From: an uncultured Granulosicoccaceae bacterium | GTDB taxonomy: Bacteria > Pseudomonadota > Gammaproteobacteria > Granulosicoccales > Granulosicoccaceae | Direction: 5' to 3' | Length of the DNA stretch: 64,000 bases | Assembly: GCA_937951345.1 (NCBI GenBank) | Contig: CALFCF010000023.1 | Location: forward strand, 1 to 64,000 | Part shown: positions 21,362 to 38,870 of the stretch, piece by piece | Position numbering within the stretch: position 1 is the first letter of the stretch | How the letters are laid out: every line of letters begins with the position of its first letter | Program-made: the position numbers and the translations under genes | Notes under the pieces: model-generated | What the model was told of the DNA's origin: nothing | What the model saw: the letters and a program-made list of their open reading frames with translations, nothing else | Databases searched by the model: none

Positions 21362-21844
21362 ATGAAGAACAAACTATTGAATTTGGCCGTCGCTGGCGGC
21401 CTGGCTGCGCTTGTATCAGGTTGTGCTGCGGTTGGTATTGGTGGCACTGTGGATACGCGTTGGGCGGATTTCAAGAGTTGGACCAAGGTCGTCGACGGTG
21501 AGACTGGAGATCCGACCAAATTCATCGGTAATGTACACCGTGGCCCAACCGGCTATCGTAACACCTATGTAAATGCCGAAGGCCTGGCTACTATCGAAGA
21601 CGATTCTGAAGGTCGAGTATTCCCGGCGGGATCTATCATTATCAAAGAGCAGTTTAAAGACAAAGCTGCCTGGGAAGCAGGTAAGGGTGCTGGCTATACT
21701 GTTGCAGTCAAGCAGGAAGATGGCACCTGGGGCTGGACCGCAAAGCTGACCGGCAAAGCGGGTGCTAATGCTTTTTGTGCTGGATGCCACGGTATTGCTG
21801 CCAAGCACGATTCCATGTTCACCGGCGGTGGTTACGCAAACTAG
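21362..21844 (+). CDS. Cytochrome P460-family c-heme lipoprotein
   Basis: A 160-residue lipoprotein precursor: signal peptide MKNKLLNLAVAGGLAALVSG with the acylated Cys at residue 21. The mature domain ends with the c-heme motif CAGCH (residues 139-143) followed by GIAAKHDSMF, the arrangement seen in cytochrome P460 and cytochrome c'-beta proteins. Those place the heme site at the extreme C-terminus and act on hydroxylamine or NO. I cannot identify the Lys cross-link residue of true P460 with certainty, so either NO/hydroxylamine chemistry or a plain electron carrier is possible. It is monocistronic with a structured 3' region. Confidence 0.75.
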   Translation: MKNKLLNLAVAGGLAALVSGCAAVGIGGTVDTRWADFKSWTKVVDGETGDPTKFIGNVHRGPTGYRNTYVNAEGLATIEDDSEGRVFPAGSIIIKEQFKDKAAWEAGKGAGYTVAVKQEDGTWGWTAKLTGKAGANAFCAGCHGIAAKHDSMFTGGGYAN

Positions 21845-23551: not shown

Positions 23552-25129
23552 CTAACGGCTGGTCAACGTTGATTCTCGTATTCGCCACGTGGCTGGTATC
23601 AGTATTAACAACCAGAACCACAACGGGTCAGCACCACTTCCTCCACTTACAGATGAACCGGAGTCAGAGGCTAAATCGGTACTTGATGTAACCGTCCAGT
23701 CGACAGCCAGAGTATCCTCACTTTGCTCATCAGCAACTGTAAGCCGAGCACTGAATACGCCGTTTCTCGCCGGTGTCCCGGTTATTCTACCTGCGGAATT
23801 TATCTGCAAACCCGGCGGTAGGCCGTCGGCTGAAAACCTTAACGGATCTTCTTCGCTGTCTGTTGCCTGTAATTGAATATCTACGGGAATGCCAATGGTA
23901 TTAATGAAAGTTCTGTCAGAAACCAGACGAGGGGGGAGGTTAGCGAGAAGGCCACTATGTCCGGGTGTCAGCGCAGCCATATTACTGGCTTTAAGTACAA
24001 AGCCATCCCAGTGAGAGTGCATTATGCGCAAATCCTCGTTGCGCGGTACGTGATGAAAAGCGACGCGATGCCAAACCGCTATGTCCTGTCCAGCCAATGG
24101 TTCGTCATTCACGAACTGCAGGATATTCTCGTAACAGTCCGGATTGAAACGGGCATTGTCATTGATAAAGCGCTCGCAATCATCCTGACGTGTAACGAAA
24201 AAATCGAATCCGGAGAACGGCTCAATTTGCTCACGGATAAAACGATGACCGTAATGTAGCGGTTGCATGCTGTACCCGGGTGAGCTTTGCGGATCCTGAT
24301 CATTGTCGGCGATACGCCATTGCAGCATCAGATGAGGCTGGACGACACGTGATGATTCGATATTCAATGTCCTTGATTCACGTATCCGACGTCCATCCTC
24401 GGCAAGCTGAAACGTGGTTTCAGATACGATATCGTCATTCGCACTATTACCCAGATCAAAATCCATATACCAGTAGTAGGTATGCGTGTGTGACAACCAT
24501 GATTTGTCGGCGGAATCCGACAGCTGCCGACCAAATTGAGACTGCACTTCATCACTGCTGCGCTGCAAGGCTCCGGCGGCGCCGACACTCGGTTCAATAG
24601 AGCCATCAGCATAAAACTTCCACGTGACTATATAAGCGTAGGTGCCCACCTGTGAGACCGAGTAAAGCGTCACGCTCTCCGATAAATGCGTTTCAGCGGT
24701 TGTTCTGTATGCATCATCGCCGACGGAACGTGTCTTACAGATTCCGGCTCGTCCTTCGACGGTTATCAATTCACCGCCTGGGCAGTTCTCCGGTACCAGC
24801 GTCAATCGAAAACCAGCGCCCAGGCCAAATTGCGTGACATCGTTAAATGTCACTTCGCTGTCATCATAAGCAACGTGTAACTGCGCTAACCGTAATTCTG
24901 AGAGCACTGGGAAGAGCGCACCACCCGGAGGCGTGTAACTGATTTCACTGAGAACGATATTCTCGCGCTGTCGTGCCTCCCAGCACATTTCCCAGCTTGC
25001 ACCGTTATCGAAGGTTTCTGTTATCTGGAAATCAACAGGACAGCTCAACGCCGCTGTTGCCTGCGGCAACACGAAGACGGTAGCAACCAGAACCATTACT
25101 GATGTTAAGAGCTGAATTAACCGTTTCAT
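23552..25129 (-). CDS. Copper amine oxidase catalytic-domain protein (exported)
   Basis: A 525-residue exported protein with a Sec signal (cleavage near ATA-ALS). Residues ~45-390 align by eye with the C-terminal catalytic domain of copper amine oxidases. FGLGA, preceded by Asp97, matches the catalytic-base segment. Cys116/Cys131 sit where the family disulfide is (GIC...). VGTYAYIVTWKF places Tyr164 at the topaquinone precursor position (family N-Y-D/E-Y, here T-Y-A-Y). SHTHTYYWYMDFD gives His214/His216, and FHHVPRNEDLRIM gives His360 as the third copper ligand. The N-terminal D2/D3 domains are absent. A He_PIG Ig-like domain (GLPPGLQINSAGRITGTP) and a C-terminal GlyGly-CTERM-like anchor (GGSGADPLWFWLLILI + basic tail) follow. 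Its start overlaps the upstream stop by ATGA. Confidence 0.72.
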   Translation of the reverse strand: MKRLIQLLTSVMVLVATVFVLPQATAALSCPVDFQITETFDNGASWEMCWEARQRENIVLSEISYTPPGGALFPVLSELRLAQLHVAYDDSEVTFNDVTQFGLGAGFRLTLVPENCPGGELITVEGRAGICKTRSVGDDAYRTTAETHLSESVTLYSVSQVGTYAYIVTWKFYADGSIEPSVGAAGALQRSSDEVQSQFGRQLSDSADKSWLSHTHTYYWYMDFDLGNSANDDIVSETTFQLAEDGRRIRESRTLNIESSRVVQPHLMLQWRIADNDQDPQSSPGYSMQPLHYGHRFIREQIEPFSGFDFFVTRQDDCERFINDNARFNPDCYENILQFVNDEPLAGQDIAVWHRVAFHHVPRNEDLRIMHSHWDGFVLKASNMAALTPGHSGLLANLPPRLVSDRTFINTIGIPVDIQLQATDSEEDPLRFSADGLPPGLQINSAGRITGTPARNGVFSARLTVADEQSEDTLAVDWTVTSSTDLASDSGSSVSGGSGADPLWFWLLILIPATWRIRESTLTSR

Positions 25130-26523
25130 TGCTGCTCTCGAACGGTGTCGAACCGGGTGTAGGGAGACCAGTCAAAAGGCTGAAGTCTGAATGCCGCCCG
25201 TCTGACTGAAAGTGCCGGGATATCCTCACTGCCGGGTGTCAGATGACGGGCTATGCTGTACCAAAACACAATATCTTCATCAGCCAGTGACTCACCGTCT
25301 ACGTAACCATCCAGGCTGGTTGCACAGCCATTCAGGCCGTCGTTGGTACTGGTGCTACCTCGCAATGTGTTACCGGAGGCCAACTGTTCACATTCGTTAG
25401 CGCGTGTTATTGCGAGGTCAAAAACAGACCAATCGTTGGTTCCGCTTAGATAGTCGAAACCGGATGGTTGAGGATCGAGAAAGTAGCTGAGATTGTTAAT
25501 AGGGCTACCGCTTTCATCGAGCAAACTCGTCGCAGTTGCTGCTGTATCCCGAACGATCCAACCACGGAACTGTTCGCGGTCGACGTGGCGGAAAGCTTCT
25601 GTCGGCACTTGCCGGGTATCGATCGGGCGACGTACAACATCAGTGATATTAAACGGGAATTGCACTTCGTCGACAGCATCCGGTGCGTTATCACCGTCGA
25701 TAGCGAATTGCAGTCGCCAGGTGGATAGCCAGGTTGCATTGGCCGCCAGACGTGAAGCGTCACCTATCGGGCTTCCGAAGCGGGGATCGCTGGTAAAGCG
25801 CGATAGCTGACCTGTCAGCTCGATAGCCGGTGCCACCTCGCCATCTTCGCTAAGGCGCCATATGGTTTGATAAATAAAGTTATCGATACGCGACCAACTG
25901 TGCAGGGATACCTGGTGCCGTCTGGTCGGCAGTTCATTGCGCACCTGGGTCATCAGGTTAATGTCGCGCTCTTTGATGCAAATCGATGAAAGCGCTAGCG
26001 ATGAACCCAGCGATTGACCGTCGGTGCATAGCGCCGGTCCGCTACGCAGAATTCTGGAGCCGCCAAGACCTATTTCAGACAGCAACGGTGTGGGGCTGGT
26101 GTCTTCATCGTACTGCAACAGTATCTGTGCTACTGAGGCTTGCCTGAGCACCATTCGACTCGGCTCTCCGGGCGCGCCATAGCTAACGTTAGTCAATGTC
26201 AGGCCCGCTTGCGCATCCACGTGCCAACACAGTGACCATCGCGCGCCCGATGCAAACTGGTGTACGAAGGGCGTTTGGTCCTGCGCTGCTGTCTGATCCG
26301 CAGAGGTGTTGCCGGCGACATCACATACAACATTTTGCTGTTGCGACAGTACAGGGAAAGGCATTAGATACAAACAGATGCAAAACCCGAAAGCCGCTAC
26401 GAACCGCGCAGATCTCTTGTGCATAGCAATCAGTACGGACGGGCATCCGGCTACGATTGTTGATAAATGCGTGCACATAAACACAAATGCGTACATTCGG
26501 GACTTAGAAGCTATTACCGTCAC
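25126..26523 (-). CDS. Inactivated copper amine oxidase catalytic-domain paralogue (exported)
   Basis: A 465-residue paralogue of the downstream catalytic-domain protein, with the same framework (GARWSLCW, VAQILLQYDED, LSSICIKERDINL, FIYQTIWRLSEDGEVAPAIELTG, RHLTPGSEDIPAL). Active-site positions are lost. The catalytic-base segment reads TPLLSEIGLG with no Asp in place. The topaquinone Tyr is Phe (N-F-I-Y, about residue 216 from the longest start). The His-x-His copper pair is missing within a short deletion (WLSTWRLQFAIDG). The GTG at 26523 overlaps the upstream stop (GTGA), but the ATG at 26424 gives a cleaner signal peptide (MHKRSARFVAAFGFCICLYLMPFPVLSQ). It has no C-terminal anchor. It is probably a structural partner rather than an enzyme. 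Confidence 0.65.
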   Translation of the reverse strand: MTVIASKSRMYAFVFMCTHLSTIVAGCPSVLIAMHKRSARFVAAFGFCICLYLMPFPVLSQQQNVVCDVAGNTSADQTAAQDQTPFVHQFASGARWSLCWHVDAQAGLTLTNVSYGAPGEPSRMVLRQASVAQILLQYDEDTSPTPLLSEIGLGGSRILRSGPALCTDGQSLGSSLALSSICIKERDINLMTQVRNELPTRRHQVSLHSWSRIDNFIYQTIWRLSEDGEVAPAIELTGQLSRFTSDPRFGSPIGDASRLAANATWLSTWRLQFAIDGDNAPDAVDEVQFPFNITDVVRRPIDTRQVPTEAFRHVDREQFRGWIVRDTAATATSLLDESGSPINNLSYFLDPQPSGFDYLSGTNDWSVFDLAITRANECEQLASGNTLRGSTSTNDGLNGCATSLDGYVDGESLADEDIVFWYSIARHLTPGSEDIPALSVRRAAFRLQPFDWSPYTRFDTVREQQ

Positions 26524-27275
26524 TTTGCTTCAGACCGAAGATAAATTTTACGTTGCATCAAATTGACAACAGGTTCAACTGAAAGGCTTAGACTGTCACT
26601 AGTGAACAACGAAACCCAGGCGCAACGCTGTTGCCGGCACTCATCAGCCAACCGGCTTTTATCGCCCGGAGGTGGCTGCCAGATAAATGTTTTCGTTTCA
26701 ATGTCGATGTCGAACTGCGGCTCTTTACCGTATTCGCGCAGAAATTCTGTACTTACAGATGCCGCTACGGACGCATTGTCTATTGCAAGCTTTGCCGCCA
26801 GATCCTGCTCCCGCTGATTGAGTGGAAGATGGATACTATCAACTGCCTGCTGGTCAATAATACGGTTTGAGGCAACGTCAAGCAGGTAGCGAGTGGTTTG
26901 GCCGGATGCATAGTCAAATACAAAGGCTTCAGCGAGTCTTGTAACCGTATTACCTGTATTGACGTCGCTTTGGCCTTTGCTGGTTGATTTCTTTCGATAA
27001 AGCGTTTCTACCAATAAGACTTCTTTGCCTAGTACCTCAGGGCTCTGGCGGACTTCTGAAGGCGTCGAAACTGACGCCGAGCGAGACTGTGGTTTATTAG
27101 CGTCGATAACGAGTTGGGTCGCTAGCTGCAATTCGATTGCCGACAGCGGCGACTGCCAACCAGCTTGCGCATGCCCGGCAATACCAAACATCGATAAGAG
27201 AACAACGCTCTTCAGGAGTCTGACAAATTTCGAGCTAACGGCTCGACAAACCAAAATTGTTAATAACTTATGCAA
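26520..27275 (-). CDS. Stand-alone copper amine oxidase N2/N3-like domain protein (exported)
   Basis: First gene of the three-gene operon: 251 residues with an N-terminal signal ending AGHAQA. Residues ~43-200 resemble the N2 and N3 domains of copper amine oxidases. An initial LSAIELQLATQLV helix is followed by a beta-strand pair (EVLLVETLYRKK; RLAEAFVFDYASGQTTRYLLDVASNRIID), as in 'AxVvlyDxxxxxtyeavVDLxxxxV'. Then QREQDLAAKLAIDNASVAASVSTEFLREYG matches the N3 helix 'EExxxaexlvxxdpxVxxaLxxxG'. Normally these domains are fused upstream of the catalytic domain. The longest frame starts at a TTG and the true start is uncertain. A C-terminal part with Cys residues (ADECRQQRCAWV) is unassigned. 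Confidence 0.58.
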   Translation of the reverse strand: MHKLLTILVCRAVSSKFVRLLKSVVLLSMFGIAGHAQAGWQSPLSAIELQLATQLVIDANKPQSRSASVSTPSEVRQSPEVLGKEVLLVETLYRKKSTSKGQSDVNTGNTVTRLAEAFVFDYASGQTTRYLLDVASNRIIDQQAVDSIHLPLNQREQDLAAKLAIDNASVAASVSTEFLREYGKEPQFDIDIETKTFIWQPPPGDKSRLADECRQQRCAWVSLFTSDSLSLSVEPVVNLMQRKIYLRSEAK

Positions 27276-27762
27276 ACTATCATTTCGTCTTATTAGAGCT
27301 AAAACAGCAAAACTAGTGGAACAGCGTACCGATTATGCGTTAGCTGATTATCTTCGGTTATCAAAATACGGCATTTTATCGCAAGTTAGCTATCAATTAA
27401 TCCAATAGGTAAAGCTGGGTTATTTGTCTCCCGCACTTAGAGACTTTATGCTGCAGGAAGTTTGCCTCAGCAGAGTATTAATGCAGCAAAATCTCTAAAA
27501 TCCGTTACCCGTCACGACTTGCGGCAGAAGCATCCGCTAAACGTGTCAGTATCTGTTTCACCGATGGTACTTTTTCTCCGTGTGCGATCCCATTGCACAC
27601 CGATCATTTACGAGACTTATACGTTATAGTAGCCCCAAGCCAAGGTATCCCATTGTAAATTCAGTAATAAAACGTGATCTGCCTCAGTCCACATTCACAA
27701 TTATTTGTTACATATTCGATCAGTTTGGCGGATTTACCGTCGATGACGGGCAATTGCTCATA
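27276..27762. other. Divergent intergenic region with a long hairpin
   Basis: About 490 bp between the minus-strand amine-oxidase operon and the plus-strand cyclotransferase. It must hold the promoters of both. A long imperfect inverted repeat lies at 27437-27498. An upstream extension of the cyclotransferase frame to 27580 is open but not protein-like. Confidence 0.45.
27437..27498. repeat. Imperfect inverted repeat (hairpin)
   Basis: TTAGAGACTTTATGCTGCA pairs with TGCAGCAAAATCTCTAA (27482-27498) with one mismatch and a 2-nt bulge, around a ~26-nt loop. No T tract on either strand makes it a clear terminator. Confidence 0.5.
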
Positions 27763-28443
27763 ATGGCCGGGCGATTGGTGTGTTACTTCGGGTACGGGTC
27801 GCTGGTCAATGCTGCTACCCGCCCGAATCATTCGAATGCAGTACCAGCCTGCCTTCAAGGATGGCGACGATGCTGGGGCCATCGTGCAGTGACCAAGGCG
27901 CATACCAAACCACATACCCACGATAATCTCTCGAGTGAATCAAACGCCCGCTTCAAGGGGTGGACTGTCCTGTCGGTAGAGCAAGCCGCTGGGACCGAAA
28001 TTGAAGGAATGTTGGTGACAATCAGTCCGGATGAGTTACCAGCTCTGGATGAACGCGAAATGGGTTATAAGCGCCTAACACTACCACTGGACAACTTTAC
28101 TGTTGGCCACTGTAAAAACTCGTTAACGACGGGTATTGTGCCGCAAGTATCCAAGGAATTGGCACAGGACATAAGCGCGGTGTATATGTACGCTTCAGAA
28201 ACACAACAGGCGTTCGATGCGACGGAGGAGTTTCCGTTGTTGCAAAGCTACGTTGATTGCGTGATGGCAGGTTATGAAGCAGAGTTCGGCGCATCGGGAT
28301 TAAGTCGCTTCATGGCAACTACACGTGGCTGGCAAGCACCGATGATCAAGGAAAGAACGGAGCCTCGTTATGTACGTTCTGTGCAACTGACTGACAGTCA
28401 GGCTGCTCGTTACGACAGGTTGATCGAAAAAACTTGCAGGTAG
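27763..28443 (+). CDS. Gamma-glutamylcyclotransferase family protein
   Basis: From the ATG at 27763, a 226-residue GGCT/ChaC-like fold protein. The glycine-rich loop YFGYGSLVN is near residue 8 and the catalytic-Glu region ELPALDEREMGYKRL near residue 90 fits the 'LDxRE' pattern. Family members release 5-oxoproline from gamma-glutamyl peptides, and some act in glutathione turnover. The start was placed at the M of MAGRLVCYFGYGS because upstream sequence shows no domain character. Substrate is uncertain. Confidence 0.8.
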   Translation: MAGRLVCYFGYGSLVNAATRPNHSNAVPACLQGWRRCWGHRAVTKAHTKPHTHDNLSSESNARFKGWTVLSVEQAAGTEIEGMLVTISPDELPALDEREMGYKRLTLPLDNFTVGHCKNSLTTGIVPQVSKELAQDISAVYMYASETQQAFDATEEFPLLQSYVDCVMAGYEAEFGASGLSRFMATTRGWQAPMIKERTEPRYVRSVQLTDSQAARYDRLIEKTCR

Positions 28444-28544
28444 TCTAAGTTGCATATAGAGATCGACGCACGTTTGTTACCATTTCTTTAACGCATAGAA
28501 TCCTGTTTGTAATTAATTCGACATTCTGTCACCGGGGCCGGCTA

Positions 28545-29303
28545 GTGAATCTTGACACCTATCGAACAATCGCGGCTAACCGGTTGTCATTTACACGCGA
28601 ACAATCCAGTTTTTTTGCAAAAGAGATGGCAGGGGATTTCAATCCATTGCACGATGTAACTGCAAAACGTTTCTGCGTGCCCGGGGATTTACTGTTCGTT
28701 TGCCTGGTTGAACGTTTCGGTCTGAGTCGAAAGACACATATAGAGTTCAACAGTATGGTTGATGAATCTGCCATGTTTGAACTGCCAGAATCTTTTGTAG
28801 ACCAATTCATTCTATCCAGCTCACAAGATACAGAGTGTCTGACGCTATCACATAAGGGCGAAGTTGCAGCTTACAATGATCGCATTGCAGCGATGGTTAC
28901 ACGCTACGTGAAATTTTCGGGCTTGACTTTCCCTGATGTACTCGTGCCGTTGATGCAGCAACATGACGTCATGATTCATCCGTCGCGACCATTGGTAATT
29001 TACCGCAGTATGACGATTGAACTGAACGAAGCAGGAATCAGTTTTGTTGGGCCCAGTAACAGCCAAGATGACATTGAGGTCACTGTTGACGCTATAGAGC
29101 TAAAGCTAATTGATTCAAGTCTTGATGTGAGCGGAAAAAAAGCCGAAGCCAGACTGCAATTTGAATTTTCAGCCAACAACATTGCTATCGGAAGCGGCTG
29201 CAAACAGATGCTACTCGGTGGACTCAGACCCTACGAGCAAGCAACTATAGATGATATTGTCTTACGCTATAACAGCTGGCGAGACAATTATCACGCACAA
29301 TAA
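28545..29303 (+). CDS. DUF3581-family protein with a MaoC-type hotdog motif
   Basis: A 252-residue protein (GTG start) that I recognise as DUF3581, found in marine gammaproteobacteria. Its N-terminal part FFAKEMAGDFNPLHDVTAKRFCVPGDLLF closely matches the MaoC/(R)-hydratase motif 'A-x-x-x-GD-x-NP-x-H', with Asp31 and His36 at the catalytic positions. A second, hotdog-like half may follow at about 130-250. A CoA- or ACP-thioester hydratase role is an inference from that motif and from the neighbours: a 3-hydroxyacyl-CoA-dehydrogenase-like SDR 32 bp downstream, then a CoA-transferase. Confidence 0.7.
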   Translation: MNLDTYRTIAANRLSFTREQSSFFAKEMAGDFNPLHDVTAKRFCVPGDLLFVCLVERFGLSRKTHIEFNSMVDESAMFELPESFVDQFILSSSQDTECLTLSHKGEVAAYNDRIAAMVTRYVKFSGLTFPDVLVPLMQQHDVMIHPSRPLVIYRSMTIELNEAGISFVGPSNSQDDIEVTVDAIELKLIDSSLDVSGKKAEARLQFEFSANNIAIGSGCKQMLLGGLRPYEQATIDDIVLRYNSWRDNYHAQ

Positions 29304-29335
29304 AGAACAATAAATTCATTGCGGACACATAGACT

Positions 29336-30100
29336 ATGCATTTCGAGAACTCTGTTGTTTGGGTAACCGGTGGCGCATCCGGTCTGGGTGCTGCCTGCGC
29401 AGAGCATGCAGCATCAAATGGCGCGAGTGTCGTTGTATTTGATCTGGCAAAAGATCAACCGGAAACACTCGACTCCATGCAAGGTCGAATCAGCTACCTC
29501 AGTTGCGATGTTTCCGATGCTGACCAAGTCACTAGTGTCGCTAATGCTGCGCAAAAAGCTGTCGGTACACCCCGTATCCTGGTTAATTGCGCAGGCATCG
29601 CACCAGCCTGTCGAACAGTTTCACGCAAGGGTGCACACGATCCCGGGTTATTTCGCAAAGCCATTGAAGTTAATTTGATGGGGTCTTTTTTTATGGCCAG
29701 TGCGGCTGCGACGATGATGGCTGAAAACGATCCGCTGGAAAATGGCGAGCGTGGGGTCATTGTTAACACGGCCTCAGTTGCTGCGTTTGACGGGCAGATT
29801 GGCCAATGTGCATACGCTGCTTCAAAAGCCGGCGTTGCCGGCATGACGCTGCCTCTAGCACGCGACCTTGCATCCTTGGGGGTTAGGGCCTGTGCAATTG
29901 CGCCAGGAATTTTCTTAACACCTATGCTTTCTGGCATGCCTGAGGACGTGCAGTCAAGTCTGGCAGCGCAGGTTCCGTTCCCGTCAAGACTTGGCCAACC
30001 GCAAGAGTTCGCGCGTTTGGTAGAACACATCGTTAACAACGAAATGCTTAACGGTGAGGTGATAAGACTTGACGGTGCGATTCGGATGGGACCACGATGA
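29336..30100 (+). CDS. 3-hydroxyacyl-CoA dehydrogenase-like SDR
   Basis: A 254-residue SDR with TGGASGLGAACAEH at the N-terminus, Asp in VVVFDLAK indicating NAD+ preference, NCAGIAPA, and catalytic Ser-Tyr-Lys (NTASVAAFDGQIGQCAYAASKAGV). The AFDGQIGQ-AYAASK and ARDLA...RACAIAPGIFLTPML segments are those of type II 3-hydroxyacyl-CoA dehydrogenases (HSD17B10-like). It overlaps the next gene by 4 bp (ATGA), so the two are translationally coupled. Confidence 0.82.
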   Translation: MHFENSVVWVTGGASGLGAACAEHAASNGASVVVFDLAKDQPETLDSMQGRISYLSCDVSDADQVTSVANAAQKAVGTPRILVNCAGIAPACRTVSRKGAHDPGLFRKAIEVNLMGSFFMASAAATMMAENDPLENGERGVIVNTASVAAFDGQIGQCAYAASKAGVAGMTLPLARDLASLGVRACAIAPGIFLTPMLSGMPEDVQSSLAAQVPFPSRLGQPQEFARLVEHIVNNEMLNGEVIRLDGAIRMGPR

Positions 30101-31317
30101 CTACCGTACCTGCGCCTCTTGACAGATACCGGATTCTGGATTTAACCCACGTTTTGGCAGGACCGTTTGCCACCCATCAACTGGGTATGCTGGGTGCTGA
30201 AGTCATAAAGATTGAGTCGCCTTGCAAGCCCGACATGATGAGAGGTGAAGGGCCTGTCTACGAACTTGCACAGGCAGGTATGGGCTTACACTATCAAGCA
30301 CAGGCTACCGGCAAAAAATCCATTACGCTCGACCTGACACAAGCCACTGGTCAGTCCTTGTTTAAATCACTTGTCAAAACCAGCGATGTCGTAGTTTCAA
30401 ATTACCGGGTGAGCAGCCAACGCAAACTCGGGCTGAGCACTGTATCGCTGCGTGAAAGTAATCCGACTGTTATCGTCTGTTCCATTACCGGCTTCGGTCA
30501 GACAGGACCAAAATCTGAACATCCAGCGTACGACAACGTAATTCAGGCATTTTCCGGCTTAATGGCAGCCACTGGGCATCCAGGACAGGATGCTTGTAAA
30601 GTCGGTCCTCCGGTACTCGACTATGGCACGGGTGCGCAGGCCGCTCTGGCAATAACAGCGGCTTTGCTTCAGCGTGAAAAATATGGCGTTGCCGCAGAAC
30701 TCGATATTGCGATGCTTGATGCTGCCTTGATGTTGATGACTGCAACCGTCACAGAAACAGCGGCCAATGGGGTGGCGCCACAACCGCACGGAAATAGTAG
30801 TCCGGTTAAACCCGGCTACGGTTGTTACAAAACAAAAAGTGGTCTGTTAATGATCGGCGCGTTCACGGTTGCACAACTGACGTCTCTATTTACTGCACTG
30901 GATCGGTCGGATCTTGCCGAGTCGATAGCGCAAAAGACACCGCATGAGATCGACAACGCTTGTCAGGAATATCGCAACTTAATACAGGAATATTTTCTAG
31001 ATAAAGATGCAGATTACTGGGAAGAGAAGCTAAACGAGGCCAACGTACCTGCAGCCAGGGTACGGACACTGGAGGAATCTCTTGGTCACCCACAGGTGCA
31101 GAGCCGAGACGTGTTGCAAGGTGTGGAAGCTGACTGCCGGTGGAACGGTAGTCATGCTTCGCCTTTATACCCGGTGAACGCATGGCGCAGTGATGTAGCG
31201 GGCGGTAACTTGATATCGCCTGCACCGGAACCTGGACGGGACAACGCCGAAATATTCAAAAGCCTCGGTGTGACGTCCGACGGACTGCAAACATTACGGC
31301 AGGAAGCTGTAATTTGA
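30097..31317 (+). CDS. Class III CoA-transferase (CaiB/BaiF family)
   Basis: A 406-residue family III CoA-transferase: N-terminal RILDLTHVLAGPFATHQLGMLGAEVIKIE, then KSITLDLTQATGQ, VVVSNYR, and SITGFGQTGPKSEHPAYDNVIQAFSGLM. The conserved Asp of VLDYGTGAQAA sits at the position of the catalytic aspartate. It moves CoA between carboxylic acids and would activate an acid for the preceding dehydrogenase and hydratase-like protein. The start overlaps the SDR stop (ATGA), and its stop overlaps the recQ start (TTGA). Confidence 0.88.
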   Translation: MTTVPAPLDRYRILDLTHVLAGPFATHQLGMLGAEVIKIESPCKPDMMRGEGPVYELAQAGMGLHYQAQATGKKSITLDLTQATGQSLFKSLVKTSDVVVSNYRVSSQRKLGLSTVSLRESNPTVIVCSITGFGQTGPKSEHPAYDNVIQAFSGLMAATGHPGQDACKVGPPVLDYGTGAQAALAITAALLQREKYGVAAELDIAMLDAALMLMTATVTETAANGVAPQPHGNSSPVKPGYGCYKTKSGLLMIGAFTVAQLTSLFTALDRSDLAESIAQKTPHEIDNACQEYRNLIQEYFLDKDADYWEEKLNEANVPAARVRTLEESLGHPQVQSRDVLQGVEADCRWNGSHASPLYPVNAWRSDVAGGNLISPAPEPGRDNAEIFKSLGVTSDGLQTLRQEAVI

Positions 31318-33215
31318 CAACTTTATCGCCGCATACCGACGCTAATCAGAGTGAATCAACCGGTTCCATGACAACCGTTAACGATCCGTTCGAGGTGCTG
31401 CAACGTGTATTCGGTTACTCTTCATTCAGAGGGCACCAACTCGACGTAATAGAAACAGTACTGTCGGATAAAAACGCTTTTGTTCTGATGCCAACCGGCG
31501 GTGGTAAATCGCTGTGTTATCAAGTTCCCGCTCTGTGTGGACAGGCACCGGTTATTGTGATTTCCCCGTTAATTGCGTTAATGGAAAATCAGGTTGCAGC
31601 GTTGAATACCCTAGGAGTAGCGGCCGCGTACCTTAATTCGTCACTCTCTCCATCAGAAGCCACTGTCGTATGCGAGAACTATACGAGCGGGAAACTCGCT
31701 TTGCTCTACCTGGCACCTGAACGCCTTGTACTTGAGGGCACGCAAAGGTTATTTGAAATAAGAACACCCAAACTGTTTGCAATTGATGAAGCCCACTGCC
31801 TGTCACAATGGGGACACGACTTTCGTGAAGACTATCTGGCATTGTCGATGCTCGCTGCCAGGTACCCGGAAGTTCCACGCATTGCACTAACGGCAACCGC
31901 GGATGGTCGAACACGTGATGAAATCGCATCCTATCTCGAAATTACACAATCCAATGGAAAATCCTTTGTAGAGAGTTTCGATCGTCCAAATATTTTCTAC
32001 GATATCGCAGCATCGACCGACAGACGGCAGGAATTACTTCAATTCATCCGTGAAGAACACAGTGGCGAAACCGGTATTGTGTATTGCCTGACTCGCAAGA
32101 CCGTTGATGAAGTGGCAGATTTTCTTAAACAGCAAGAAATAAATGCCTATCCGTATCACGCGGGTATGGATGCACCTGAAAGGCTACAGAACCAGAAACG
32201 GTTTCTTCAGAACGAGGGCGTTGTGATAGTCGCTACAATCGCTTTCGGTATGGGCATTGACAAGCCCGATGTTCGATTTGTAGCACACCTTAATTTGCCC
32301 AAAAACATTGAAGCTTACTCTCAGGAAACAGGCAGAGCAGGGCGTGACGGGAAACCCGCTGTCGCGTGGATGCGATATTCACTAAAAGACATAATCAGTC
32401 TTCGTCACATGATGCGGGAGAGTAACTCTTCCGATCTGCACAAAAACGTTGTCTCCAACAAACTCGAGTCCATGCTGGGTTTTGCAGAGATGACGGAATG
32501 CCGTAGACACTGCATTCTCGCGTACTTTGGTGAGCATTCGCCGTCAGATTGCAATAATTGCGACAATTGCTGCAATCCACCTGAAACCTATGATGCGACA
32601 GAAATTGTACAGAAAGCGTTATCGTGTGTTTACCGAACCGGTCAGCGGTATGGTGTGCGCTATGTCATCGATGTTCTAACAGGTCAGAACAATGAACGTA
32701 TATTGCGCGCAGAGCACGATCAAATTTCGACTTTCGGAATTGGTGCTGAGGTTTCTGTTAACGAATGGCAAAGTGTGTTTCGTCAGATTATCAGTCGAGG
32801 ATTATTGTATGCAAATCTTGAAAGCTACGGTACGTTACAACTGACTGAAAAAGCACGGCCCGTGCTGCGTGGCGAGCAGAATATCAGTTTGCGTATACCA
32901 CCGGCGCGTAAAAGTAAGTCCAGGAAAAATTCCAAACACATTTCAGGTAAAAAAGTGGATTCACATCTGGATCAAACTCAGCAAGCACTGTTTGATATTC
33001 TTAAAGAAACACGCAGGCGTATTGCCAGCGAAGAGAGCATTCCACCTTATCTTGTTTGCCATGACACAACGCTACTGGAAATATGCGTGAAGAAACCGAC
33101 CAGTATCAATGCCTTATTGCAAATAAATGGAATAGGAGAAAAAAAAGCTGAACGTTTTGGTGAGGCGTTGCTGACAGCGATCGTTCAATCAGAAAGATCT
33201 TCGGAGAACGTATGA
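31314..33215 (+). CDS. recQ: ATP-dependent DNA helicase RecQ
   Basis: A 633-residue RecQ helicase (usual length ~600-610). Motif I PTGGGKSLCYQVPAL is near residue 60, the DEAH box is in AIDEAHCLSQWGHDFREDY, and motif VI is in QETGRAGRDGKP. Zinc-binding cysteines are in ECRRHCILAYFGEHSPSDCNNCDNC, then a winged-helix RQC region and a C-terminal HRDC domain (IPPYLVCHDTTLLEICVKKPTSINALLQINGIGEKKAERFG). It unwinds recombination intermediates, often with topoisomerase III (topB in this window). The TTG at 31314 overlaps the CoA-transferase stop; an ATG at 31368 is an alternative. Confidence 0.95.
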   Translation: MTTLSPHTDANQSESTGSMTTVNDPFEVLQRVFGYSSFRGHQLDVIETVLSDKNAFVLMPTGGGKSLCYQVPALCGQAPVIVISPLIALMENQVAALNTLGVAAAYLNSSLSPSEATVVCENYTSGKLALLYLAPERLVLEGTQRLFEIRTPKLFAIDEAHCLSQWGHDFREDYLALSMLAARYPEVPRIALTATADGRTRDEIASYLEITQSNGKSFVESFDRPNIFYDIAASTDRRQELLQFIREEHSGETGIVYCLTRKTVDEVADFLKQQEINAYPYHAGMDAPERLQNQKRFLQNEGVVIVATIAFGMGIDKPDVRFVAHLNLPKNIEAYSQETGRAGRDGKPAVAWMRYSLKDIISLRHMMRESNSSDLHKNVVSNKLESMLGFAEMTECRRHCILAYFGEHSPSDCNNCDNCCNPPETYDATEIVQKALSCVYRTGQRYGVRYVIDVLTGQNNERILRAEHDQISTFGIGAEVSVNEWQSVFRQIISRGLLYANLESYGTLQLTEKARPVLRGEQNISLRIPPARKSKSRKNSKHISGKKVDSHLDQTQQALFDILKETRRRIASEESIPPYLVCHDTTLLEICVKKPTSINALLQINGIGEKKAERFGEALLTAIVQSERSSENV

Positions 33216-33225
33216 AACCACCCGG

Positions 33226-33657
33226 TTATTGCAAACGGTGTTCGCAATACCTGACTTCTCGATCCTGCAATTCGCCTTTCACTGAGAATTTCTCAAAACC
33301 GGCTTGTGTTCGTGCAACCTTACGATTCTGGCAGGCCGTCCACACACGGTAATGTGCCACGACACGGTCAGAGCTGTCCCTCTCTTTGTAGAATTGACTA
33401 GTACGGTAACCAGAATTTACACGCCGTTCGCGTGAGTCGCACAATTCCACGTTGTTGCTCTCGGCAATAGCAAATATCTCACGCAGCATACCGATTCCGT
33501 TTATCAGGGGATCATTCTTCGAAATGTCCATCGCATCAGTTGCGATTGCTGCGTTTTCAACCAGTGTATTCGTCTGGAATATCGAGTTGTTTTCTATATC
33601 TGTCATAGAAACCATTGTCCGGACTGTTGTGAAAATATTCTGCAAACCATTTGGCAA
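33226..33657 (-). CDS. Hypothetical protein, uncertain
   Basis: A 143-residue frame converging on recQ. Its sequence (MPNGLQNIFTTVRTMVSMTDIENN...) has no domain I recognise, two Cys in the C-terminal half, and ordinary composition without membrane segments. The true start may be one of several internal Met codons. Kept because no other gene accounts for the interval and it ends neatly against recQ; support is weak. Confidence 0.4.
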   Translation of the reverse strand: MPNGLQNIFTTVRTMVSMTDIENNSIFQTNTLVENAAIATDAMDISKNDPLINGIGMLREIFAIAESNNVELCDSRERRVNSGYRTSQFYKERDSSDRVVAHYRVWTACQNRKVARTQAGFEKFSVKGELQDREVRYCEHRLQ

Positions 33658-33722
33658 AGTACTGTTAATGTAGACCGGTGATAATACCGAATAGCGCTGC
33701 GGTAGCTGCTAAAGCAAAGCTG

Positions 33723-34754
33723 TTACGCCGAAGTCTTCATGTTTTGATTACGCCCGATCAGAATTCTTTTTATTTGTGTAAGCCGCTCATTTTTCAGCAG
33801 CCATTCATCGATCAGGTAGTGAACAAATATGCCACTGACAATGCAAATCAATGTGGCGATTACAGCAAATAGAACGGCTGCCATTGCATCGCCACCAAGA
33901 AAAGCGGGAAGAATTTTTCGACAAAGACCTAATGTGAAAATATGACAGATGTATAGCGAATAGGACGTGTCGCCTAACATAACAAAGAATTTGCTATGTG
34001 CAATGCGGATATAAAGTGTACCTAGAACAATCATCAAAGCTGGAATTCCGTACTGCACAATGCGCGGTAGTGACGATTCAGGAAGCAGCATCAGTGCAAA
34101 TCCAAGCAGCAGTAGTACCCAGGCCACGCCGTTCGAAACCTTCAAACCCTTTCGAAACAATAGCGCCAGCACCATACCAAATACAAACTCAAATACTATC
34201 GAACTACTGTAGAAATTGCTGATTGGCCCGTCAGATCCAAAAATGTTTGCAAGCAGAAATACAATGGTGATTGCAATACTAATGATCCAAACGCGAAATT
34301 TTAACGGTGCAAGCAAAGCCAGAGCGAAAAGCGCATAGAAATACATTTCATAATTAAGCGACCAGCCCGGTGCAAGTATCGGCCATACGTGCTGCGGATG
34401 GGAAATGCTGGTTTCAGGAATAAAAAAAAGACTTTTTAACGTTGCAGCAAGACTAAAGCTGGAATTTTTAAAAAGTGCTGGCATGAATAACAAGATGGCT
34501 GCCATTAAGAGCGTGAAGAACCAGTAGAGAGGTACCACTCTGCGCACACGATTCTTGAAAAATCTGGCGGGCGTGTCGTTTTCCCGCGCGATATAAACCA
34601 TTATGAATCCAGAGATGACAAAGAAGATGTCAACACCGAACGCACCGGTTTCGCGCAGAAATGGCTTGTAGCTTTCGACTTGAATGGCTGCATGACTCCA
34701 GACAACCGCTATCGCTGCGATGGCACGTAGGTATTGCAGTGAATGGAGTTTCAT
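33723..34754 (-). CDS. Acyltransferase 3 family membrane protein
   Basis: A 343-residue polytopic protein with about ten membrane helices. The N-terminal SLQYLRAIAAIAVVWSHAA contains the conserved His of the acyltransferase 3 (OafA/OatA/NodX) family, followed by GVDIFFVISGFIMVYIA and the RRVVPLYWFFT motif. These enzymes transfer acetyl or other acyl groups across the membrane to exopolysaccharide, LPS or peptidoglycan sugars. Two acetylesterase-like lipoproteins lie immediately upstream on the same strand, suggesting opposing activities on the same surface glycan. Confidence 0.88.
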   Translation of the reverse strand: MKLHSLQYLRAIAAIAVVWSHAAIQVESYKPFLRETGAFGVDIFFVISGFIMVYIARENDTPARFFKNRVRRVVPLYWFFTLLMAAILLFMPALFKNSSFSLAATLKSLFFIPETSISHPQHVWPILAPGWSLNYEMYFYALFALALLAPLKFRVWIISIAITIVFLLANIFGSDGPISNFYSSSIVFEFVFGMVLALLFRKGLKVSNGVAWVLLLLGFALMLLPESSLPRIVQYGIPALMIVLGTLYIRIAHSKFFVMLGDTSYSLYICHIFTLGLCRKILPAFLGGDAMAAVLFAVIATLICIVSGIFVHYLIDEWLLKNERLTQIKRILIGRNQNMKTSA

Positions 34755-34833: not shown

Positions 34834-36216
34834 TTAGTTACCAGCTGCTTCCAGCATTGCCCGGTAATAGCGCCGTCCCATTTCTCGTAGTGCTCGTGTA
34901 CCAAAATGTATGCAAGACGTGTTGCCACAGGGAAACCCATTAGCCGGCGTCAAATCATCGTGAATTGAAACCGCACTGTGCCTGACACGGTTTCTTATGT
35001 TTCTGTGAGCTTCGTCGACCAAAGTCTTCTCCGGGGAGAAGTCACTTAAATCACCGCGTGCATCTGCACCACGAGACATTGTTCCAACAACAAACGGTAC
35101 ATTTGCATCGGCAGCTCGCGCGGCAGTGCCACGAATGTCGGGTATGATGCGGGTGCGCAATTGTTCAGCAAGTAGCTGTAGATTGTCAGCGTATCGGCCG
35201 GAGCACTCACTATTAGCATCTGACTCACCTTGATGCCAGAGTATGCCGCGTAAAACACCACCGGAAAATTCCAGTGCGTGGTTTATGCGCGTTAATGCTC
35301 TGTCAAACATCAACGTATTGCCATGGAATGGTTCGTTTGTGGGTAACGGGTTCCACTGACCGGGGGCGATAGTGGTATTGCAAAACGCAGTACCCGACCA
35401 GGCAGCCGGAACCAAAATTATGTTACGGCTTGTTGCCGGCAAAGCTTCTTTGGCAAAGGTCAGTCCCAGACCAATAAAGTCCTCTTCCTTGTCGAGCGTT
35501 GACGGTTCTACAGGAATATGCAGCGGATCTATCGCATTGGTCATCCGCGGCTCAATGAAGTTTACGTCAACGCTGGTGTAATCATCTGTCGATAGAAACA
35601 CGGTAAATTCGTCGTTGCGAGACACATTGAACTGCTTGATACGGTCGTTTGCTTCATCGGGGCCACCCGGGCCGGCATCCTTGGTTCCGTCACCACCGAA
35701 GCCCACCATATTACTTTGACCGATCAGCAGGTAAACGTCATCCCGCTCCACCGGCAACACATCAACATTCACGATAATAGTATCTGTCTGGTCACCGTCA
35801 CTAGCAGTTATTCTAAAACTCCGTTGCTGGGGCAGTATCGGCATCACGCCTACATTCAGTTTAAGATTGACATTGGTTTGATTAACGGAAGGCGTCAGTG
35901 TGTCGCTTCCAAACACAGTGCTGATAAATGCGGAGTCCTGTGCCTGAACACCGGCAATAGTCAGTATCACAGGGTCTTCATGTCCGTCTTCGCGGGTCAA
36001 ATCCAGTGGTATATCCAATCCGGCGCTGTCGCCTTCCTGTAAAACCAGAGCAACAGGTAGAGACCGCAATGAAAACGGTGCTGAATCACTGCCACTTCCG
36101 GATGAGCATGCACTCAGCAGCCCAATAATCGATGCGAAGACGCAAATCCTGAGCAAACGTGAGCACTTGTCTCCACTTCTGCACAGTCGAATAAATATGT
36201 ATTTTTTCAGATTCAT
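34834..36216 (-). CDS. SASA-family sialate O-acetylesterase-like lipoprotein (copy 1)
   Basis: About 460 residues from the ATG at 36216. The lipobox is in FASIIGLLSACSS, then comes a beta-rich Calx-beta/cadherin-like domain (about 45-150), then a SGNH-type carbohydrate acetylesterase domain. The nucleophile block is VYLLIGQSNMVGFGGDGT, the conserved block is GILWHQGESDANSE, and the catalytic-His region is CIHFGTRALREMGRRY. The domain family (SASA) removes O-acetyl groups from sugars. An in-frame start nine codons upstream (36243) is possible. It is a paralogue of the next gene and of the gene at 62.2 kb. Periplasmic or outer-membrane lipid anchorage is predicted. Confidence 0.8.
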   Translation of the reverse strand: MNLKKYIFIRLCRSGDKCSRLLRICVFASIIGLLSACSSGSGSDSAPFSLRSLPVALVLQEGDSAGLDIPLDLTREDGHEDPVILTIAGVQAQDSAFISTVFGSDTLTPSVNQTNVNLKLNVGVMPILPQQRSFRITASDGDQTDTIIVNVDVLPVERDDVYLLIGQSNMVGFGGDGTKDAGPGGPDEANDRIKQFNVSRNDEFTVFLSTDDYTSVDVNFIEPRMTNAIDPLHIPVEPSTLDKEEDFIGLGLTFAKEALPATSRNIILVPAAWSGTAFCNTTIAPGQWNPLPTNEPFHGNTLMFDRALTRINHALEFSGGVLRGILWHQGESDANSECSGRYADNLQLLAEQLRTRIIPDIRGTAARAADANVPFVVGTMSRGADARGDLSDFSPEKTLVDEAHRNIRNRVRHSAVSIHDDLTPANGFPCGNTSCIHFGTRALREMGRRYYRAMLEAAGN

Positions 36217-36549
36217 TATGGCTGGATACGCCGAAATGACCATTGGGCCGTGGTACTGGGATTAACGTTCACCGATGCCACCTTATCGGCACTAACGTTC
36301 CTCTGCTTCTTATCGGGCTCTGAAAATTTGAATTGTTACTAGAAAATTTTCGAAACGGTGCACACTAGTGAAATGTAGTTCATACGCAGCAAGGGTGCCG
36401 CTATTTGTGAATCTCAGCAGATGTACAGAAGTGCTGAGAATCTGAGGTGGATTTTCATCCTGCAACCACCTCGAACCTTGTAGATGCTATCCATCTACAA
36501 GTATCAGGTCGCTTGCACGAATAACAGAAAAATAGCGCTTACTTAGATA
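36217..36549. other. Intergenic region between the two SASA genes
   Basis: About 330 bp without a gene. It includes CTACAAGGTT...-type short inverted matches around 36470-36500 (TTGTAGATG / CATCTACAA), possibly the terminator region of the upstream copy, but without a clear T tract. Confidence 0.4.
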
Positions 36550-37992
36550 CTATTGTGCCGCGCTCAACACCGATTGCAGCGCTTGAAAATAGCGTACGCC
36601 CATTTCGCGATACGCCGCGGATCCAAAGTGGACACAAGAACCTTCACCACAGGGAAAGCCGTTTGATGGCACCAGATCATCAAAATTTGCGAAACCGTAG
36701 TGCGTAATCAATCCCTGAGAGCCTGCTGTTCTGTGTATGTTGTCGACTTGGTTTTTTGTCGTTGAAAACTGGGCGAAATCACCACGGCTATCGTTACCCC
36801 GCGACATGGTGCCGGCAACAAAGGGCACATCCGAGAACTGTCCGCGCGCTGCTGGCCCACGCGCATCGGTGATAATATTTGTGCGGAATTCACTGACTAA
36901 TGTCGCTAGGTTGGATGCATATTCTTGAGCGCATTCGGCGTTTTCACTGTCTGCTTCACCCTGATGCCAGAGTATGCCGCGCAGAATCCCACCGGATCGT
37001 TGAATAGCCAGATTTGCACGAACAACCGCACGCCTGAACAGTGTGGTACCACCAAACACCGGTGAGGTTGGTTCAAAAGCATTCCAGCCCAGGTCGCCTT
37101 CAATTACAAAATCCGGCGTGTCCGGCAACGTCGCAAAGAATCCGCCGGTGTTACAGAATCCGGTAGCAGACCAGGCTGCCGGCACCAGCACGATGCGATG
37201 TTCTGAATCAGTGCGCAAAGCCTGCTTCGCGAATGTCAAACCGAGGCCTATCCGAGTACCTGGTTTACCGGACATGTTTGGATCGCGGCTTTCATGCAAG
37301 GGGTCCTCGGCCTCAACGAAATCCGGGAAAGCGACTTGCGCAGCCGGATTTCCGAACTGATCTACTGAAAAGAACCTGACCGTGTCATTAGCCGTCACGT
37401 TCAATTGCTGAATAGCTGCGACCGGCTCATCCGGCTCTCCGGGATCTGCCTGTTTAGCGAAATCTTCACTGAAACCAGACATGTTGCTCTGACCAACGAG
37501 TAGATAGATATCGGGCAACGAAGTAGGGCGTATATTAAATAGCATTGTCACGCTTTCAGTCGACGTACCATCGCTGGCAGTCACAACCACTGATCGTTGC
37601 TGTTCGGTCGCACGACTTACACCGTGAGCGAAGAATGCGGTTAATGATGTCTGGTTATTACCAGCAGGCAATTGTTCTCCGGCTAATGACACGCTAAGTC
37701 GTGAATCACCCGGGTTTCCATCAACGGACAAACTCAGAACAATGGTCGCGTCGTGAGAGGCGCCACGAGCAATAGAAACCGGGACGGTTATCGCTTCACC
37801 TTCAATCAGATCAAAACCATTGTTGTTGGACAATAACCTAAACCCGTTATCTGTCGCAGGTGCAGGGTTGCCCGCGGTATCGACCATCGGAGTAACGGGC
37901 CCGCCAACAGGAAACGCCCGATCTGATCCACCACAGGCACTTAAAAACGCACAGGCTAAGCCCAGCCATAAAACGTGATATTGCACATTCAT
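36550..37992 (-). CDS. SASA-family sialate O-acetylesterase-like lipoprotein (copy 2)
   Basis: About 480 residues from the ATG at 37992 (MNVQYHVLWLGLACAFLSACGG, signal plus lipobox); a longer frame to 38076 would hide this signal. A beta-rich domain with a LIEGEAITVPVSIARG segment precedes the esterase domain with LLVGQSNMSGFSED, GILWHQGEADSE and CVHFGSAAYREMGVRYF. It is clearly paralogous to copy 1 and copy 3, and likely acts on an O-acetylated glycan outside the cytoplasm. Confidence 0.8.
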   Translation of the reverse strand: MNVQYHVLWLGLACAFLSACGGSDRAFPVGGPVTPMVDTAGNPAPATDNGFRLLSNNNGFDLIEGEAITVPVSIARGASHDATIVLSLSVDGNPGDSRLSVSLAGEQLPAGNNQTSLTAFFAHGVSRATEQQRSVVVTASDGTSTESVTMLFNIRPTSLPDIYLLVGQSNMSGFSEDFAKQADPGEPDEPVAAIQQLNVTANDTVRFFSVDQFGNPAAQVAFPDFVEAEDPLHESRDPNMSGKPGTRIGLGLTFAKQALRTDSEHRIVLVPAAWSATGFCNTGGFFATLPDTPDFVIEGDLGWNAFEPTSPVFGGTTLFRRAVVRANLAIQRSGGILRGILWHQGEADSENAECAQEYASNLATLVSEFRTNIITDARGPAARGQFSDVPFVAGTMSRGNDSRGDFAQFSTTKNQVDNIHRTAGSQGLITHYGFANFDDLVPSNGFPCGEGSCVHFGSAAYREMGVRYFQALQSVLSAAQ

Positions 37993-38870
37993 TCTGCCAG
38001 TCAAATCACCGCTATTATGTCGTAATAATATACTACGTACAATCATTGCGACAGCTGTAAGTAAGGATGTGGTCATGGCGCGTTGTTTAATACACAGACA
38101 ATTGGGTTTCCACCGACATATTCGCCTGCGTGGGTTATCAAATGTGTACTCTGTGGCTAGCGAATAAAGGGTTGAGTTTTGGCAAAAATAAAGGACTCAG
38201 ACCGCGCTCTGACGCGACCGAACCAACAAAATGGTTTGTTACGCTTTAGAACGTCTTTTGTCTGAACGGGCCTATTGTTTGCCGATGAATAATGAACAGA
38301 TGGATGCTTTTTTTTGCGTGTGGATTTTGTACGTATTCTGCATTGCAAACCTGCATTGCAAATCGAGCAAAAGTGCGGTTATTCGAGCCGCTTATCAGGC
38401 ATTAGTTTAGCAGAATCGCCACTTTGTAAGCTTGCGATTAGGCAAGCTGTCTATCCCCATGCTTTTTGTCACATTCTAGTGTGTTCGCACAATAGACGCT
38501 CTAGGCGAAATTCACTGAAAGTGCGCGCCACGCACGCTACGAATAGGCAGGCTAGTAACGGACTCCTTCCCGTTACGGCAACGAATTGAGCCACTGGTTC
38601 GTTCACATTTACGTGCTTTTGGGCCTGATCAGCCGATTTTGGAGGCAATCACTGGTAAACTAGTCGCCAGATCGGCGATTCTGCGCTATCGCGAACCAGC
38701 ATTAACCGGCGCATATAAAGCGGAATGCGTCCGTAAACGGACTGCCAGAGCGGCGCAGGCGCTTTTATAATTGTGCCACGCTGTAAATCGCTAAATCTAA
38801 ACAAACTACATAGATCGCACGCAGATCTTACAAACGAAACTAAGTTCGTATCATTAAGCCGGAGGAATCC
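37993..38870. other. Non-coding region upstream of the ABC importer
   Basis: Roughly 880 bp with no convincing gene. It contains a tandem copy of CTGCATTGCAAA (38339-38362), a GTAACGG/CCGTTAC hairpin (38555-38576) and a perfect GTCCGT-AA-ACGGAC hairpin (38729-38742). The substrate-binding-protein gene has a strong GGAGG ribosome-binding site at 38861-38865. Confidence 0.55.

Follow-up and report, generated by a model that had tools for sequence, protein, structure and literature searches.

Copper amine oxidases (CAOs) such as AGAO and the E. coli enzyme ECAO (TynA; PF01179) carry domains D2, D3 and D4 on one chain. Dimerisation is obligate in CAOs, where hairpin arms of each catalytic D4 domain help to form the active site of the other, and according to a 2012 review all structurally characterised members are homodimers (PMC3382800). 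The mutual need of the two sites has been studied with an engineered half-dead dimer, the AGAO wild type (WT)/Y382F heterodimer, which is stable and in which the active half is normal (PMC4497604). We analysed a stretch of 64,000 nucleotides (the window; positions 1 to 64,000 of the forward strand of contig CALFCF010000023.1, assembly GCA_937951345.1) from an uncultured marine Granulosicoccaceae bacterium, in which a preliminary description made from the letters alone had proposed a split CAO encoded by three genes. Our results support the idea that these genes, for the proteins P0003, P0002 and P0001, probably encode one exported heteromeric CAO with P0001 as the sole catalytic chain. This putative enzyme resembles AGAO and ECAO in the D4 fold, copper histidines, catalytic Asp, cofactor Tyr and Tyr369 of P0001 and in the D2/D3 fold of P0003. 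It differs from them in that D2-D3-D4 are spread over three chains at all complete loci, the second D4 is dead, the consensus for the cofactor topaquinone (TPQ) is changed, the segment between base and cofactor is shortened, and P0001 has an additional C-terminal Ig domain and sorting-type tail. A literature search for split, heteromeric or pseudoenzyme CAOs returned no description, with most subscription journals outside its coverage.

The three proteins are encoded by consecutive open reading frames of 251, 465 and 525 codons on the minus strand. The gene for P0003 (26520..27275, TTG start) encodes a predicted exported N2/N3 (D2+D3) protein of 251 aa. It is followed by the gene for P0002 (25126..26523, GTG start), a D4 pseudo-subunit of 465 aa that appears to be catalytically dead, and by the gene for P0001 (23552..25129, ATG start), a D4 protein of 525 aa with a complete copper/cofactor site. 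As had been reported, the P0003 stop and P0002 start share a 4-nt GTGA overlap (26520..26523, minus strand) and the P0002 stop and P0001 start share an ATGA overlap (25126..25129, minus strand); both were confirmed in the sequence. Overlaps of -4 (ATGA, GTGA or TTGA) are kept at 28 of 45 junctions of homologous loci from the same family, where starts were taken as the codon nearest the upstream stop, a rule that favours small distances, not exactly -4. The least certain call is the GTG start of P0002 (26523), which gives a long n-region. With an in-frame ATG at 26424 as the start, the signal peptide would look more ordinary (MHKRSARFVAAFGFCICLYLMPFPVLSQ); in L033, the closest relative, the P0002 N-terminus is comparably long.

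Because P0003 alone matched no Pfam family and gave a single weak CAO match (E 0.0037) with Pfam/NCBIfam, fold and profile comparisons were needed to identify it. CAOs made up 50 of the 50 Foldseek matches listed (best E 4.9e-7) for its AlphaFold2 model (pLDDT 85.7). With VIA-align, residues 40-249 were placed onto HPAO 24-209, ECAO 95-281 and AGAO 11-192, which are D2+D3, giving a D2-like part at about residues 40-147 and a D3-like part at about 148-249. The main rows had Z scores of about 9 to 11.1 and a root-mean-square deviation (rmsd) of 3.1-3.9, with HPAO 24-209 at Z 11.1, rmsd 3.6 and 174 residues; unrelated models can reach Z 7-8 with this method and the best Z is only modestly higher, but all top rows were CAOs and covered the same two domains. 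A profile-profile comparison aligned the P0003 family in register with the N-termini of ordinary CAOs (E 8e-6), and against the Protein Data Bank (PDB) the family profile had CAO N-terminal domains (E ~0.8) as its sole matches up to E 10. AGAO-like_N2 was matched by 2 of 23 P0003 homologues (best E 5.5e-4), and the homologue at L158, a locus from a second family described below, directly matches the profile of ordinary CAOs (E 3.5e-5 for the whole sequence). By these fold predictions and profile matches, P0003 is the N2/N3 (D2+D3) part of CAOs, encoded as its own protein as originally suggested.

Both larger proteins pass the curated PF01179 cut-off of 27 for the CAO D4 domain (P0001, E 2.9e-29 and 102.6 bits; P0002, E 3.7e-21 and 76 bits). 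Sequence searches of the PDB with P0001 and P0002 returned only CAO D4 domains, except for a single match that ran through the Ig-like region at the C-terminus of P0001. Among the better matches was the Pichia pastoris lysyl oxidase PPLO (1rky/1n9e), a CAO whose substrate is peptidyl lysine; unlike the arrangement proposed here, PPLO is a single-chain homodimer with a canonical TPQ site. The AlphaFold2 model of P0002 (pLDDT 79) aligned with AGAO over 348 residues (Z 33.4, rmsd 2.8) and matched CAOs in Foldseek at E ~1e-21. Together, these data indicate that P0001 and P0002 are both, as judged from sequence and model, the CAO catalytic D4 domain. The structural matches on which the preliminary description had staked its proposal, between P0003 and N2/N3 and between the CAO catalytic fold and the two larger proteins, were thus both found.

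To compare the active sites, E. coli TynA, eight ordinary Granulosicoccaceae CAOs and 23 P0001 and 24 P0002 homologues (the copies of the window among them) were aligned. P0001 residues Y88, D97, Y164, H214, H216 and H360 are invariant in 23/23 homologues, so that Tyr369, the base Asp383, the cofactor Tyr466 and the copper ligands His524, His526 and His689 (ECAO numbering) are all kept, as is the second metal site Asp533/Asp535/Asp678. On the minus strand of the window, these are the codons of Tyr164, the TPQ tyrosine equivalent (24638..24640), of Asp97, the equivalent of the base (ECAO D383, AGAO D298; 24839..24841), of His214-Thr-His216, two of the copper ligands (24482..24490), and of His360, the third (24050..24052). 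In P0002, the equivalents of Tyr466, Asp383, His524, His526 and His689 are lost in 24/24 homologues, and Phe216 (25876..25878, minus strand) stands at the TPQ tyrosine position. The same division holds in the second family, where copper histidines, base, cofactor Tyr and Tyr369 are present in 27/27 active copies and the active-site residues are gone in 19 inactive partners. The claim that one D4 copy keeps and the other loses these residues is therefore true of every locus.

The preliminary description had missed a change next to the cofactor. The TPQ consensus is T-x-x-N-Y-D/E (PMC3382800) and P0001 has Q-V-G-T-Y-A. This consensus is lost in P0001 and every family homologue: Thr is replaced by Gln in 21/23, Asn by Ala (14), Ser (8) or Thr (1), and the Asp/Glu after the cofactor Tyr by Ala, Thr or Ser. 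Active copies of the second family have Ala, Ser, Glu or Gln in place of the Asn, so that this "strictly conserved" residue is replaced in 50/50 active copies of both families. The eight ordinary Granulosicoccaceae CAOs all keep the Asn and vary at the other two consensus positions; three ordinary single-chain CAOs of this family (L057, L058, L026) have N-Y-V at the cofactor, not N-Y-D/E. In AGAO, the N381A mutation makes TPQ formation 180-fold slower and lowers kcat 160-fold, with TPQ still made (PMC9491219), and in HPAO N404A gives 5-10% TPQ (PMC3382800).

Among 57 relatives searched, true orthologues are confined to the same GTDB family. When two peptide patterns were run against about 85,000 species genomes, they matched 36 loci, 35 of them labelled Granulosicoccaceae or Granulosicoccus and one a "Chromatiales bacterium" metagenome-assembled genome. 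The order N2N3 - inactive D4 - active D4 was found at 22/22 complete Granulosicoccaceae loci, with one more locus cut by a contig end. Because the order is identical at all of these and 28 of 45 junctions keep the -4 overlap, the arrangement is not due to chance. When 369 genomes of the class were searched by profile, one further carrier family was found, also gammaproteobacterial, in which 35 of 63 genomes have a match at 1e-10 (some through the Ig-like domain only) and at least 15 loci have the same order. Outside these two families, none was found in the 369 class and 398 phylum genomes, which are thin samples, bar one weak partial match. The second family is more varied. Two loci have five genes, a single N2N3 gene flanked on either side by an inactive/active D4 pair (inactive-active-N2N3-inactive-active; L160 5283-10704 and L186 4806-10275), two others have two active genes in tandem, and six genes for the active chain stand without neighbours (L159, L179, L182, L183, L189, L190) in genomes that each also have a full operon. 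In one genome of this family (G450), one contig carries N2N3 and inactive D4, and another the active gene.

This distribution bears on whether the locus could be an ordinary CAO broken by a frameshift or stop beside a tandem copy, either as a pseudogene or as an assembly artefact. The N2N3-D4 order of the first two genes does match the domain order of a normal CAO. However, each part has its own signal-type N-terminus, about 40 loci from the two families share the same gene borders, no locus with fused parts was seen among these, and the cysteines and fold are conserved. The kept borders and signal-type N-termini refute a frameshift or pseudogene, and we give this explanation next to no credence. 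The three-gene set is a real conserved system, and the search of other genomes for its gene order, suggested with the first proposal, bore it out. In a tree of 102 D4 domains, the inactive copies of both families group together (support 97/91), as do the active copies (93/73), and the four groups each have a support of 100. This split of all inactive from all active copies points to one old duplication. By this tree, the gene was most likely duplicated, and the second site lost, a single time, before the two operon lineages parted.

Because CAO dimers are obligate, and because the stable and active AGAO WT/Y382F dimer indicates that one dead subunit is tolerable, we read P0001 and P0002 as a heterodimer that occurs naturally and has a single active site. 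Copper would be bound by the three histidines of P0001 and the quinone cofactor would form on Tyr164. P0002 would take the second place in the dimer, giving the dimer interface and hairpin arms and no active site, and P0003 would supply in trans the D2 and D3 that ordinary CAOs have in the same chain, where they help to line the substrate entrance. Whatever its stoichiometry, such a complex would act at the cell surface as an oxidase of primary amines, either free or polymer-bound. Like the AGAO heterodimer, the proposed dimer has one active and one Tyr-to-Phe D4; unlike that construct, which is man-made from one gene and has D2/D3 in each chain, P0002 is natural and old and also lacks the copper site and the base. 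In both D4 proteins, the arm I segment that precedes the cofactor is shortened, and the KH-type motif of ordinary CAOs is missing from it. Because arm I normally extends to the partner's active site (PMC4497604), its alteration would fit a dimer with a single site. The genome of the window has exactly one P0001, one P0002 and one P0003, and an ordinary CAO was sought there and not found; P0001 therefore has no source of D2/D3 other than P0003 and, besides itself, no D4 partner other than P0002. The neighbourless catalytic genes found only beside a full operon and the split contigs of G450 are what assembly of the chains in trans would predict.

Three points weigh against this heteromer. We infer the association of the chains, and P0001 could form homodimers. 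The correlations of pairwise identity among the three proteins (0.80-0.93) are explained by shared descent alone. The residues at the cofactor site are changed at the Thr, Asn and Asp/Glu positions and, with the defects of AGAO N381A and HPAO N404A, this means that the usual activity is not assured. The first point leads to an alternative in which P0001 works alone as a homodimer and P0002 and P0003 form a separate non-catalytic complex, such as a sensor of amines or copper, a chaperone that assists folding or cofactor formation, or a binding protein that feeds substrate. The six second-family catalytic copies without adjacent partners favour it, but every genome with such a lone copy also has a full operon, and a full-length catalytic chain was in no case seen in a genome lacking a pseudo chain. 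In addition, P0002 retains the D4 fold and P0003 holds the domains that P0001 lacks. We regard this alternative as unlikely, if worth keeping in mind.

The third point raises the question of the cofactor, which in a second alternative would not be an ordinary self-made TPQ; it could be another oxidised Tyr, or TPQ made or reoxidised with a partner of the MauG/MbnH type. Besides the loss of the consensus in 50/50 active copies, this alternative draws on genes that follow the catalytic gene in most second-family operons. A YtkA-like gene (PF13115, motif GGMPAHGHGLPT) and a MauG/MbnH-like di-haem gene lie directly downstream of the active gene at 13 and 12 loci, respectively, counts that include G450, where they follow the inactive gene. 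The pair is seen at L158 (3366-5113), L172 (1536-3157), L175, L177, L180, L184, L187, L188, L191 and L193. The di-haem enzyme matches PF03150 (CCP_MauG), and its best NCBIfam relatives are MbnH (TIGR04039) and MauG (TIGR03791), in both cases with scores far short of the curated cut-offs. Enzymes of the MauG type act on partner proteins, in which they oxidise amino-acid side chains. This chemistry and the lost TPQ consensus make assisted cofactor maturation attractive, and in the second family it is possible, if unproven. The YtkA-like/MauG-like pair also occurs without the oxidase, and the genome of the window has a close pair elsewhere (C19, ~32360-34120), which this alternative could call on. 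However, several Granulosicoccaceae genomes with the operon have no close MauG/YtkA copy and several without it have one. Because the pair is present with and without the split oxidase in this family, it cannot be required there, and we rejected it as a general partner in Granulosicoccaceae. The kept copper ligands, base and Tyr, and the TPQ still formed by N381A AGAO, also argue against an unusual cofactor, which we judge to be rather improbable. A bolder version, in which self-processing has been given up, the di-haem and YtkA-like proteins mature or reoxidise the cofactor, and the pseudo-subunit and N2N3 protein are a platform for interchangeable catalytic chains, seems doubtful to us and is offered as speculation.

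The heteromeric CAO that we favour would be exported, as had been suggested from export signals on all three proteins. Each has a hydrophobic export-type N-terminal segment, with an 11-residue hydropathy of 2.3 in P0003, 2.6 in P0002 and 3.1 in P0001, and values of at least 1.9 are found at the N-terminus of 17/23, 23/24 and 23/23 homologues, respectively. The shortfall for P0003, the first gene, is probably due to our choice of starts. Invariant cysteines, six in each D4 protein and two in P0003 (Cys213/Cys218), are consistent with an exported complex. P0001 further has an Ig-like He_PIG domain at residues 400-481 (23687..23932, minus strand; PF05345, E 2.8e-10) and a tail (23555..23668, minus strand) that is Gly/Ser-rich, then hydrophobic, then basic. 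The suggestion that this tail is GlyGly-CTERM-like is plausible. By simple rules, 22/23 P0001 homologues have the three-part tail, and the genome of the window encodes a rhombosortase (TIGR03902, 152.6 bits against a cut-off of 84). By contrast, the GlyGly-CTERM model TIGR03501 did not match P0001 itself and gave a weak match in 1/23 homologues (E 0.023). Rhombosortase is nearly universal among the family genomes searched and hence not specific to the operon. Export, the tail and the rhombosortase make a cell-surface location likely, and attachment may be through the Ig domain and tail of P0001. As a separate observation, the six neighbourless catalytic genes of the second family all end GlyGly-CTERM-like, and many operon copies there have MAM, Big_9 or cadherin-like modules instead or end without such a tail.

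Beside the operon, divergent genes on the plus strand (27580-33215) encode a GGACT-like protein, a DUF3581 protein and, further on, a RecQ-like helicase. Relatives of these flank the operon at 15-16 other loci; we set them aside as functional partners in Granulosicoccaceae, as this looks like a conserved chromosomal position. Elsewhere in the window are a cytochrome P460 family protein with CxxCH and a lipoprotein-like start (21362-21844, plus strand; PF16694, E 3.8e-9) and, on the minus strand, a lipoprotein-like protein in which most of the sequence is DAASSATDAASDAASS and EGDAA(A)EGDAA repeats (56564-57646) and three paralogous secreted proteins (34834-36243, 36550-38076 and 62237-63793) with a LIGQSNM-type motif, which we take to resemble that of sialate O-acetylesterase/SGNH-type hydrolases.

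The split oxidase is thus a conserved, and probably heteromeric, variant of a well-known enzyme family. The half-dead CAO dimer appears to be natural here, with the dead half free to diverge. The role of the dimer, half-site behaviour and the job of D2/D3 become testable by omitting or swapping single genes. The natural loss of the Asn beside the cofactor Tyr, a residue whose mutation costs about 160-fold in activity, would provide a test case for how topaquinone is made and steered.

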